Assembly (NCBI GenBank): GCA_022647615.1
Contig: JALCKZ010000001.1
Coordinates: forward strand, 298,178-362,177
Reading direction: 5' to 3'
DNA from: Bacteroidales bacterium
GTDB lineage: Bacteria > Bacteroidota > Bacteroidia > Bacteroidales > UBA932
DNA: 64,000 nt
Below the pieces are notes generated by a model, which saw only the letters and a program-made list of their open reading frames with translations, did not search any database and was not told where the DNA came from. The position numbers were made by a program, and so were the translations under genes. Below, piece after piece: positions 55,109 to 57,983 of the stretch (position 1 is the first letter of the stretch; every line of letters starts with the position of its first letter).

Positions 55109-55789
55109 ATGAAAAAAATAATTGGCATCATGCTAATCGGCGCAGCTCTTGTCGCGGGCTGCAAAGGCAAAAAAACTACAGAAATGACACAGGCACAAAA
55201 AGACTCTGCCGCACTTGCTGCACAGAAAGCTGCACAGCCGGACACGCTGGCATTTGACCCGGCAACACTTCCGGAAGAGCCGGAATTTGATATTGTAACA
55301 ACAATGGGAACAATAAGAGTGAAACTTTATAAAGACACACCTCTGCATAGAGCCAACTTTGAGAAACTTACTTCACGGAGATATTATGACAACATTCTGT
55401 TCCACAGGGTAATAAGCAACTTCATGATTCAAACCGGAGACCCCGCAACAAAAGACCCCAACTCAGACAAATCAACTTGGGGACAAGGTGGTCCGGGCTA
55501 TACAATACCTGCGGAAATCCTTCCAAATCACAAACATAAGAAGGGCGCCCTTGCTGCCGCAAGAAAGGGAGATACTGCAAATCCTAACAGAGAGTCCTCA
55601 GGTTCACAATTTTACATTGTTCAGAATGCTCAGCAATGCGCACAGCTAGATGGTCAATACACCGTATTTGGAGAGACTGTCAGCGGACTAGATGTAATAG
55701 ATAAAATTGCTGCTGCTGCCACCGGTGACAAAGATTGCCCGCTTCAGCCAATAAAGATTTTGAGCATACTTCCTGTTAAAACAAAATGA
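55109..55789 (+). CDS. Cyclophilin-type peptidyl-prolyl isomerase, lipoprotein
   Basis: 226 residues. The lipobox is ALVAGCKGK (Cys19). The cyclophilin domain spans about 63-225: IVTTMGTIRVKLYKDTPLHRANFEKL, then YYDNILFHRVISNFMIQTGDP (with the catalytic FHR and FMIQ-type motif), and SSGSQFYIVQNAQQC. Probably anchored in the envelope and helping fold exported proteins. It overlaps the next, related gene by 4 bases (ATGA). Confidence 0.93.
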   Translation: MKKIIGIMLIGAALVAGCKGKKTTEMTQAQKDSAALAAQKAAQPDTLAFDPATLPEEPEFDIVTTMGTIRVKLYKDTPLHRANFEKLTSRRYYDNILFHRVISNFMIQTGDPATKDPNSDKSTWGQGGPGYTIPAEILPNHKHKKGALAAARKGDTANPNRESSGSQFYIVQNAQQCAQLDGQYTVFGETVSGLDVIDKIAAAATGDKDCPLQPIKILSILPVKTK

Positions 55790-56388
55790 AAAAGATAATT
55801 GGCATAATAGCAATTTGCGCGCTTGTTATAACCACATGCTTTGGCAACGCACAAGCGCGGGAAAAAACTAAAAAAGAGCCGGTCTTTGACATTGTCACAA
55901 CAATGGGGACAATTAGGGTAAAGCTTTACAATGATACGCCTCTTCACAGAGACAATTTTGTAAAGCTTGTCAAAAGGCACTTTTTTGACAACATCCTGTT
56001 CCACAGGGTAATAAACGGATTTATGATTCAGGCTGGAGACCCTCAAACTAAGAATCACGATAGTGATTCAACAATGTGGGGCAATAATGACGCCGGTTAC
56101 ACGTTGCCTGCAGAGTTCCGTCCAAACCACACCCATATAAAAGGTGCTTTGGCTGCTGCAAGAGAGGGCGATAAAGAAAATCCTATGAAGGAATCCTCTA
56201 GCTCTCAGTTCTATATTGTCCAAAATCCGGAACATTGCAAACACTTGAATGGTTCCTACACCGTTTTTGGAGAGACTTTAAGTGGCCTGGATGTTGTAGA
56301 TAAGATAGCGGCGGTCCCTACAAATAAGGCAGATTGCCCTATCACGCCGGTTAGAATAATAAAAATACGCCGAGTAAGAGGAAAATAG
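55786..56388 (+). CDS. Cyclophilin-type peptidyl-prolyl isomerase, periplasmic
   Basis: 200 residues, a paralog of the gene it overlaps by 4 bases. Signal peptide MKKIIGIIAICALVITTCFGNAQA; the cysteine is in TTCFGN, a weak lipobox. Cyclophilin core: IVTTMGTIRVKLYNDTPLHRDNFVKL, FFDNILFHRVINGFMIQAGDP, SSSSQFYIVQNPEHC. Clearly a tandem duplication. Confidence 0.93.
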   Translation: MKKIIGIIAICALVITTCFGNAQAREKTKKEPVFDIVTTMGTIRVKLYNDTPLHRDNFVKLVKRHFFDNILFHRVINGFMIQAGDPQTKNHDSDSTMWGNNDAGYTLPAEFRPNHTHIKGALAAAREGDKENPMKESSSSQFYIVQNPEHCKHLNGSYTVFGETLSGLDVVDKIAAVPTNKADCPITPVRIIKIRRVRGK

Positions 56389-56490
56389 GCATAAAGTTTG
56401 GCCTATAAAAAATTGAGTTCGTCCATAAAAAAAGCCGTTTTGGTGATAAAAACCTCCTTTTAATAGCATCTCGATAGGTTTTTCAAATTG

Positions 56491-56506
56491 TGGCACGGAC
56501 CTTGCA
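56491..56506 (+). promoter_or_regulatory. Sigma-54-type promoter
   Basis: TGGCACG-gacc-TTGCA matches the -24/-12 consensus TGGCACG-N4-TTGC[AT] at every position, with GG and GC correctly spaced. It predicts a start near 56517. No gene start follows within range except rpsP, which has its own promoter; a terminator lies about 70 bases on. Confidence 0.6.
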
Positions 56507-56516
56507 ATAGAAAGAG

Positions 56517-56586
56517 ACAAATAGTTTTTTCATAGGTTAAATTTTAGGTTTGAGAAATGGGTTGGAGTTCTTCCAACCCTTTTTTC
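56517..56586 (+). ncRNA. Candidate sigma-54-dependent small RNA
   Basis: A segment of about 70 nt between the predicted sigma-54 start and the terminator hairpin at 56559-56586. It has no convincing reading frame. Read from sequence only; no expression evidence. Confidence 0.4.
56559..56586 (+). terminator. Rho-independent terminator
   Basis: GGGTTGGA-gttct-TCCAACCC followed by TTTTTT. It lies 170 bases beyond the cyclophilin stop. Confidence 0.85.
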
Positions 56587-56630
56587 ATTTATACCGGTCA
56601 ACAAGCAAAAAACTGTCGGGATTAAATAAA

Positions 56631-56662
56631 TTGCTCATTTTAAGAAAAAAAGCATATCTTTG
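56631..56662 (+). promoter_or_regulatory. Promoter of rpsP
   Basis: TTG at 56631-56633, a 21-base spacer, then TATCTTTG at 56655-56662: a strong match. rpsP starts 61 bases on. Confidence 0.7.
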
Positions 56663-56723
56663 CGCACCTTTTCTCGAGCAGATAAGGAAGTTATAGAAAT
56701 TATTAAATTTTAAACTCACAGTT

Positions 56724-57353
56724 ATGTCTGTAAAAATTCGTTTATCACGTCATGGTAAAAAGGGATTTGCCTTTTTCCATATTTTAGTGACCGATTCTAG
56801 GGCTCCACGTGATAGTCGCTTTATTGAATTACTAGGTTCTTACAACCCTAATTCCAATCCTGCAACTATTGTCTTGGACAGCGAGAGAGCTCTTTATTGG
56901 TTAAATCAGGGTGCGCAGCCTAGCACAACTTGCAGAAGGATATTGTCTTACAAAGGCGTCCTTTTGAAGAAACATCTACAGGAAGGCGTTGCAAAGAAGG
57001 CTCTTACTCAGGAGCAAGCCGATGCTAAATTTAACGCATGGGTATCTGAGAAGGATGCTAAAGTTGCAAAGAAAGTTGAGTCTATAAAGACCAACAATGA
57101 GAGTGCAAAGAAGAATGCCGCAGCAGCAGAGAACAAAGTAAATGTTGCACGTGCAGAGGTACTTGCAAAGAAGAAAGCAGAGGCTGAAGCTGCAAAAGCA
57201 AAGGCAGAGGCTGAAAAGGCCGAGGCTGAGAAGAAAGCAGCTGAAGATGCTAAGGCAGCAGCAGAGAAATCTGCAGAAGCCGCTCCTAAGGCAGAAGAGC
57301 CAAAGGCAGAGGCCCCAAAAGCTGAAGCGCCTAAAGCAGAGGAAAAGAAGTAA
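56724..57353 (+). CDS. rpsP: 30S ribosomal protein S16 with long low-complexity tail
   Basis: The S16 core is about residues 1-85 ([43 protein letters not shown]..., [29 protein letters not shown]). Bacteroidetes S16 is longer than that of E. coli, but here about 120 further residues follow, the last 80 almost purely A, E and K ([26 protein letters not shown]...). rimM begins 6 bases after the stop, as is usual for this operon. Confidence 0.96.
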
Positions 57354-57359
57354 TTACGT

Positions 57360-57983
57360 ATGCGCTCAGCGGACAGCATAAAGCTTACGCCTGTTGCACA
57401 AATTGTAAAAACTTATGATTCAACAGGAGAGGTTCTAATAAGAATCAATGCTCCTGAATTTGAAGACAAACTAATTACTTTTGAAGAAAACAATTCTGCT
57501 GAAAGAGCTACAGAGAGTATTTCCAAAGAAGTATACTTTAAGGAACCGGTGTTCATTCATTTTGAAGAACTGCCGGTTCCTTTTTTTATCACCTCCGCCA
57601 CACAGCGCAGCGGCAACGCATGGATTATAAAGTTCTCGACAGTCCGTGACGGTGCTCATGCCCAGGAACTTGTGGGGAATGATATCTTTATAGAAGACCC
57701 CAGCTCTGCTAAAGAGGATTCAACTGATGCGTCCGGCGACAGCACCTCAGAAGGCGCAGAGGAAGACAATCAAATATCTGATGTTGAACAGCTTATTGGC
57801 TTCAAGCTGCTGGATGAAGACGGCACAGAAAAAGGCGTCATCACAAGTTTCTATGAGTTCACCGCCAATATCTGCCTGGAAATCAACAATTCCACAATGG
57901 TTCCCCTGCATGAAGACCTTATCATCTCCATCTCTAAAAAGGACAAAACCATCGCGATGAAAATCCCAAAAGGATTATTTTAA
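57360..57983 (+). CDS. rimM: Ribosome maturation factor RimM
   Basis: 207 residues. N-terminal RimM domain (PVAQIVKTYDSTGEVLIRINAPEF, VFIHFEELPVPFFI) and C-terminal PRC-barrel (QLIGFKLLDEDGTEKGVITSFYEF, VPLHEDLIISISKKDKTIAMKIPKGLF). It helps 30S assembly by binding S19. A D/S/E-rich linker separates the two. Its position after rpsP is conserved. Confidence 0.9.
   Translation: MRSADSIKLTPVAQIVKTYDSTGEVLIRINAPEFEDKLITFEENNSAERATESISKEVYFKEPVFIHFEELPVPFFITSATQRSGNAWIIKFSTVRDGAHAQELVGNDIFIEDPSSAKEDSTDASGDSTSEGAEEDNQISDVEQLIGFKLLDEDGTEKGVITSFYEFTANICLEINNSTMVPLHEDLIISISKKDKTIAMKIPKGLF

Follow-up and report, generated by a model that had tools for sequence, protein, structure and literature searches.

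A predicted FopS-like small RNA gene behind a sigma-54 promoter element in a family of gut Bacteroidales

To our knowledge, FopS (Rfam RF04319) is among the few trans-acting small RNA families of the Bacteroidales that have been characterised. According to the available text of one study, FopS of Bacteroides thetaiotaomicron blocks the translation of SusC at the start codon and is antagonised by the protein RbpB, the RNA responds to bile salts, and the fopS genes have canonical sigma-ABfr promoters (PMC11697453). For sigma-54, a regulon has been mapped in Flavobacterium psychrophilum which, in the parts of the report drawn on here, comprises chaperones, Lon, Skp, lipoproteins, gliding genes and the putative RNA Rfp36 (PMC9723704). 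In addition, the accessible part of a further paper cites a dependence on sigma-54 for the GrpE and GroES proteins of B. thetaiotaomicron (PMC12316311).

The window, that is, the whole stretch of 64,000 nt that was analysed, contains a tandem pair of cyclophilin genes (55109-55789 and 55786-56388) which is followed on the same strand by rpsP. The 335-nt gap between the end of the second cyclophilin gene at 56388 and the rpsP start at 56724 harbors a sigma-54 promoter element. The features of this region are:

56491..56506, + strand: sigma-54 promoter, -24 TGGCACG and -12 TTGCA; perfect consensus, conserved upstream of the RNA
56517..56586, + strand: predicted small RNA of ~70 nt, based on a conserved block and the terminator; a sub-cut-off Rfam match to FopS covers 56524-56588
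56526..56550, + strand: unstructured seed TTTTTCATAGGTTAAATTTTAGGTT, the most conserved part of the RNA, predicted to pair with TonB-receptor start regions
56559..56585, + strand: intrinsic terminator with a 9-bp stem, a 3-nt loop and a T run, based on the fold and the T run
55786..56388, + strand: cyclophilin-type peptidyl-prolyl isomerase (Pfam PF00160), upstream and not part of the RNA gene
56724..57353, + strand: rpsP (Pfam PF00886), downstream, context only
57360-57983, + strand: rimM (Pfam PF01782/PF24986), after rpsP, context only

A preliminary description of this locus had called TGGCACG-N4-TTGCA a complete match to the sigma-54 consensus, and a motif scan confirmed this at position 56491. 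The letters TGGCACGGACCTTGCA at 56491-56506 (+) match in full what we take to be the -24/-12 consensus, with the GG-N10-GC core in its TGGCAC/TTGC context. The pattern TGGCACR-N4-TTGCW is found once in the 64,000 nt, compared with 0.017 on average and never more than 1 in 60 dinucleotide shuffles, and a looser scan of the window with two mismatches (2 seen vs 4.7 expected) says nothing taken alone. Throughout the genome the strict form TGGCAY-N5-TTGYA occurs 8 times vs 2 times in a backward control. Among these eight, the TGGCACG form is restricted to the two copies of the RNA that this genome carries, each with its -24/-12 element; the remaining six are located mostly within reading frames. 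Conservation at numerous loci and across numerous species, as shown below, lifts the promoter element far above chance, and a motif arisen by chance is rejected.

Sigma-54 transcripts usually start 11-13 nt past the GC of the -12 element, which would place the 5′ end of the RNA at 56517. The predicted 70-nt RNA has a folding energy of -17.6 kcal/mol (z -2.24) and is structured only at the terminator, whose stem (56559-56579) is followed by TTTTTT; the stretch between promoter and terminator is U-rich. This stem begins 52 nt past the -12 element, which bears out the earlier statement that a terminator lies some 50 bases past the promoter. The same description had seen no reading frame between the two, and indeed no ATG-started ORF of at least 30 amino acids begins in the predicted RNA; one TTG-started ORF (56550-56696, 48 aa) reads through the terminator. 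In a MAFFT alignment, 4 of the 19 terminator pairs exhibit compensatory changes, with an unfavourable covariation term.

The Rfam match which fits the length and place of the RNA is FopS, with 31.8 bits vs a cut-off of 56, over the full length and in register, whereas BTnc231, another Bacteroides small RNA, reaches 29.6 vs a cut-off of 80.4. As the FopS score is below the cut-off but the match is in register, we regard the RNA as FopS-like and not as a member by the Rfam criterion. Of 20 related loci, 12 likewise have FopS as their Rfam match in the right position, in every case below the cut-off. Judged by its sequence, the RNA is akin to FopS, which comprises paralogous small RNAs of Bacteroides. 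True FopS RNAs above the cut-off were found in 15 of 99 genomes of the order. All 24 above-cut-off FopS loci that were read carry TAnnTTTG just before the seed and, by eye, no -24/-12 element, which agrees with the promoter description in the available text of PMC11697453. The preliminary description had compared the layout only to sigma-54-driven small RNAs of proteobacteria; its reading as a small RNA stands, but it missed three things, namely the kinship with FopS that Rfam reveals, the existence of a multi-locus family and the antisense relation of the seed to start codons.

When the DNA from 56440 to 56620 was searched in 41 genomes, 27 matched, namely all 25 of the genus and 2 of the 16 that belong to other families. 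Matches in G030 and G035, which represent two distant families, were rejected as small RNAs since the loci read there, judged by eye as reverse complement, are start codons in antisense, and several weak matches within the family were discarded as start-codon regions read antisense. TGGCA[CT]-N5-TTG[CT] precedes the RNA in all 20 genus loci read, even where only the RNA part had matched, and the -24/-12 element together with TTTTTTCA is present in 36 of 39 genus genomes, with variants in two of the other three (L060, L061). Across the order, 12 of 393 genomes contain a stricter pattern, namely each of the 6 that were sampled from the window's family and 6 of 387 others; of these latter six, a single one (G417) has the seed within two mismatches and the terminator. 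The scan of named genomes yielded at least 117 stretches, mostly from uncultured Bacteroidales that live in the guts of ruminants and other animals; the matches listed include Candidatus Cryptobacteroides and Candidatus Coprenecus. A search of viral contigs gave 2 matches (L201, L202), the former without a FopS-like continuation past the seed.

The association of promoter and RNA is also seen with a model (R1) that comprises the 5′ part of the RNA only and excludes the promoter. At E ≤ 0.01 this model matched 81 places in 35 of the 39 genomes of a family-wide sample. The best 70 of the 81 matches were fetched and classed, leaving out the 11 weakest, and comprise 64 sRNA-like loci and 6 gene start codons in antisense. 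By a simple scan, a hairpin with T run follows at 61 of the 64 sRNA-like loci vs 1 of the 6 start-codon decoys. A -24/-12 element at the right distance, defined by 9 of 12 consensus letters with GG and the -12 G obligatory, is present at 51 of the 64 and at none of the decoys, while shuffled upstream DNA gave a mean of 0.6 and a maximum of 3 in 200 rounds; one of the 51 (L329) is ambiguous in that it bears a TAnnTTTG box as well and may belong with the loci of that kind, and L327 is counted as lacking the element though one sits further upstream. At five of the 13 loci without the element by this criterion, a perfect TAnnTTTG box sits near the RNA, and three more (L316, L363, L365) have a similar box by eye. 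Both promoter types are found on one RNA within a single family and even within single genomes (G055, G164). Many of the 39 family genomes have at least two sRNA-like loci, the usual copy number being 1-3. Promoter, 5′ part of the RNA and terminator are jointly conserved across genus and family.

Two further arrangements were observed. Tandem copies of the RNA, ~100-200 nt apart, occur in G406 (L071), where both have the -24/-12 element, and in G417 (L064); as G417 belongs to another family, the tandem arrangement may reach beyond that of the window. At L163 and L193 the -24/-12 element and TTTTTCATAGG are followed by a divergent stretch, ATATTGGATTTAA, ahead of the hairpin; these loci may represent another lineage of sigma-54 RNAs.

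RpoN, the absence of which had been named beforehand as an argument against the promoter, is encoded in the genome (2.23 Mb, one contig); its activator-interacting, core-binding and DNA-binding domains are all matched by Pfam. The presence of RpoN and the joint conservation of promoter, RNA and terminator support the interpretation of 56491-56586 as a sigma-54 promoter with a regulated small RNA. There are 7 Sigma54_activat matches in the genome, of which 3 are full activators: one with receiver and AAA domains but without Fis, one receiver–AAA–Fis protein, and one AAA–Fis protein beside LptE. The receiver-less activator gene which adjoins lptE (L078, near C1:610518) is a candidate for transmitting an envelope signal, and the activator–lptE arrangement is listed for F. 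psychrophilum too in the consulted portion of PMC9723704. An upstream activator site, which the preliminary description had also envisaged, did not emerge: apart from cyclophilin codons, the 200 nt upstream of 138 non-redundant loci share no conserved site, in a search that would miss divergent or distant sites. The upstream palindrome TCGA-N14-TCGA was rejected as an activator site, as by eye it falls on cyclophilin codons. The same explanation holds for those of the shared upstream words that were traced, because a cyclophilin gene lies directly upstream at 59 of the 117 related loci listed. Of 43 genomes checked for RpoN, 42 gave a match. G164 did not, although it carries sigma-54-type copies of the RNA and its assembly is given as 99% complete, which we cannot explain except by an assembly gap.

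The reverse complement of the seed, AACCTAAAATTTAACCTATGAAAAA, resembles a start-codon region, and the seed is complementary to starts of the type AUGAAAAAA. Twenty TonB-receptor genes were found in the genome, of which 4 without a signal-peptide-like start were left out. The starts of the remaining 16 have a mean duplex energy of -19.2 vs -13.4 kcal/mol for 26 signal-peptide controls (p = 2.2e-4), where the energies ignore target accessibility and start codons were picked by a simple score; an earlier pairing comparison took all 20 receptors, and one window gene stood in both sets. Relative to dinucleotide-shuffled seeds the receptors have a z of -2.4 and the controls of -0.5 (p = 0.0015), and 8 of the 16 receptors have z < -2 relative to shuffled targets, the receptor in L260 giving the best value (z -6.6). 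The duplexes span the AUG at 14 of 16 receptors, and a reversed seed gave -12.9. The second copy of the RNA pairs less well with the receptors (p = 0.011 and 0.059). Perfect complements of the seed in the genome number 9 vs 6 in the backward control, with no convincing gene start among them, and 2 are the RNA's own copies. The genome also encodes one RRM_1 protein, and the pairing with receptor starts fits the action of FopS on SusC as far as it is described in the text at hand of PMC11697453. A sense copy of the seed (ATTTCATAGGTTAAA...CAGGTACAATG) lies just before the start codon in the leader of a secreted-protein gene, once in this genome (L235, C1:620780) and once in G001 (L054); it could be a sponge, a decoy or a chance match.

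These pairing data bear on the alternative that survives best, in which the RNA is a real sigma-54-driven small RNA whose targets are not TonB receptors, so that it would be a general start-codon blocker or would act on a few unrelated mRNAs. In general the seed looks like the complement of start-codon regions of Bacteroidales, the start codons of varied genes are what it matched best in antisense in distant genomes, and near the related loci of other species the receptor enrichment was not found, with just 2 receptors among 234 signal-peptide genes. However, in its own genome the receptors exceed other signal-peptide genes in pairing, and the nearest relative, FopS, acts on the start regions of SusC in the available account (PMC11697453). 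We consider this alternative unlikely.

Three further readings explain the region by its neighbours or without an RNA product. Since rpsP is the next gene on the same strand, the element could be the sigma-54 promoter of the rpsP–rimM operon and the RNA merely an attenuated leader. Yet the terminator intervenes, rpsP has a TAnnTTTG box of its own, TATCTTTG, at 56655 beyond the terminator which could serve it, of the 117 loci listed only 14 have rpsP within 1.5 kb downstream, and the genome's second copy sits in a different gene context; this reading is rejected as highly improbable. The product of rpsP itself is 209 aa long and matches ribosomal protein S16 over residues 9-67 only, and the remainder ends in a long Lys/Ala/Glu-rich tail. 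Equally hard to credit is the view that the region is simply the 3′ end of the cyclophilin operon with its terminator and a chance promoter motif: a cyclophilin gene is indeed directly upstream at 59 of the 117 listed loci, but the -24/-12 element and the seed are also kept at the remaining ones. Least probable of all is a DNA or RNA element that yields no regulatory RNA, such as a parking site of sigma-54 polymerase with a short abortive transcript. This would agree with the lack of an activator site in the upstream search, whereas seed and terminator, which make up the transcribed part, equal the promoter in conservation and the same RNA follows a TAnnTTTG promoter in other lineages.

Thus we think it likely that 56491-56586 forms a gene of its own, placed under sigma-54, whose product is a trans-acting FopS-type small RNA which blocks the translation of outer-membrane receptors. 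In this mechanism an activator ATPase would be switched on by a signal and would open the RpoN–RNA polymerase at the -24/-12 element, so that an RNA of ~70 nt ending at the terminator would be made. We infer that the signal is probably an envelope or protein-folding one because of the F. psychrophilum regulon, the dependence of GrpE and GroES, and the bile-salt response of FopS, each as far as the sources cited above describe them. The unstructured 5′ seed UUUUUCAUAGGUUAAAUUUUAGGUU would then pair across the AUG of the AUGAAAAAA-type starts, above all of TonB-dependent/SusC-like receptors, and would block ribosome entry. The RRM protein of the genome may modulate this pairing, as RbpB does for FopS.

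In the open-licence PMC literature we found no description of a sigma-54-driven FopS-type RNA, and the word rpoN is absent from the available text of PMC11697453, PMC7366714 and PMC10994844. Given the kinship with FopS on the one hand and the TAnnTTTG promoters of all FopS loci read on the other hand, this kind of RNA is already known, but its placement under sigma-54 in the window's family appears to be undescribed in the searchable literature. The promoter split is visible across the whole family, with both promoter types on one RNA, and the relatives which keep TAnnTTTG would show a promoter swap directly. A wider interpretation, which we regard as evenly poised, is that in one gut Bacteroidales family a FopS-type antisense RNA moved from a housekeeping promoter to sigma-54 and became the RNA branch of a response to envelope stress in which the translation of TonB/SusC receptors is shut off, as an independent counterpart of the proteobacterial sigma-E/MicA–RybB system. 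This would link sigma-54, which is little studied in gut Bacteroidales, to outer-membrane receptors and their post-transcriptional control, in a short circuit that lends itself to testing.

Among the known systems, Rfp36 of F. psychrophilum resembles the RNA in being a putative regulatory RNA of the same phylum with a mapped sigma-54 (SM4) promoter; it is uncharacterised in the portion of PMC9723704 used here and is likened by description only. With FopS and its relative GibS the RNA shares the length of 65-70 nt, the single-stranded 5′ seed, which starts with UUUUUCAU(A/G)G and ends with AGGUU, the one terminator hairpin after the seed, several paralogues per genome (here two), the seed antisense to AUG regions and an encoded RRM protein; the architecture corresponds to that in PMC11697453, which in its available text gives 12-15 copies for FopS, compared with usually 1-3 in the family described here. 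The RNA differs from FopS also in its Rfam score below the cut-off and in its -24/-12 promoter instead of the sigma-ABfr TAnnTTTG box. In enterobacteria the envelope-stress factor sigma-E drives MicA and RybB, small RNAs that shut off outer-membrane protein synthesis. Although the sigma factor, the RNA sequence and the phylum are different and no Hfq step is implied for the RNA of the window, it would work in an analogous way, leading from a stress sigma factor via a small RNA to the shut-off of outer-membrane proteins.
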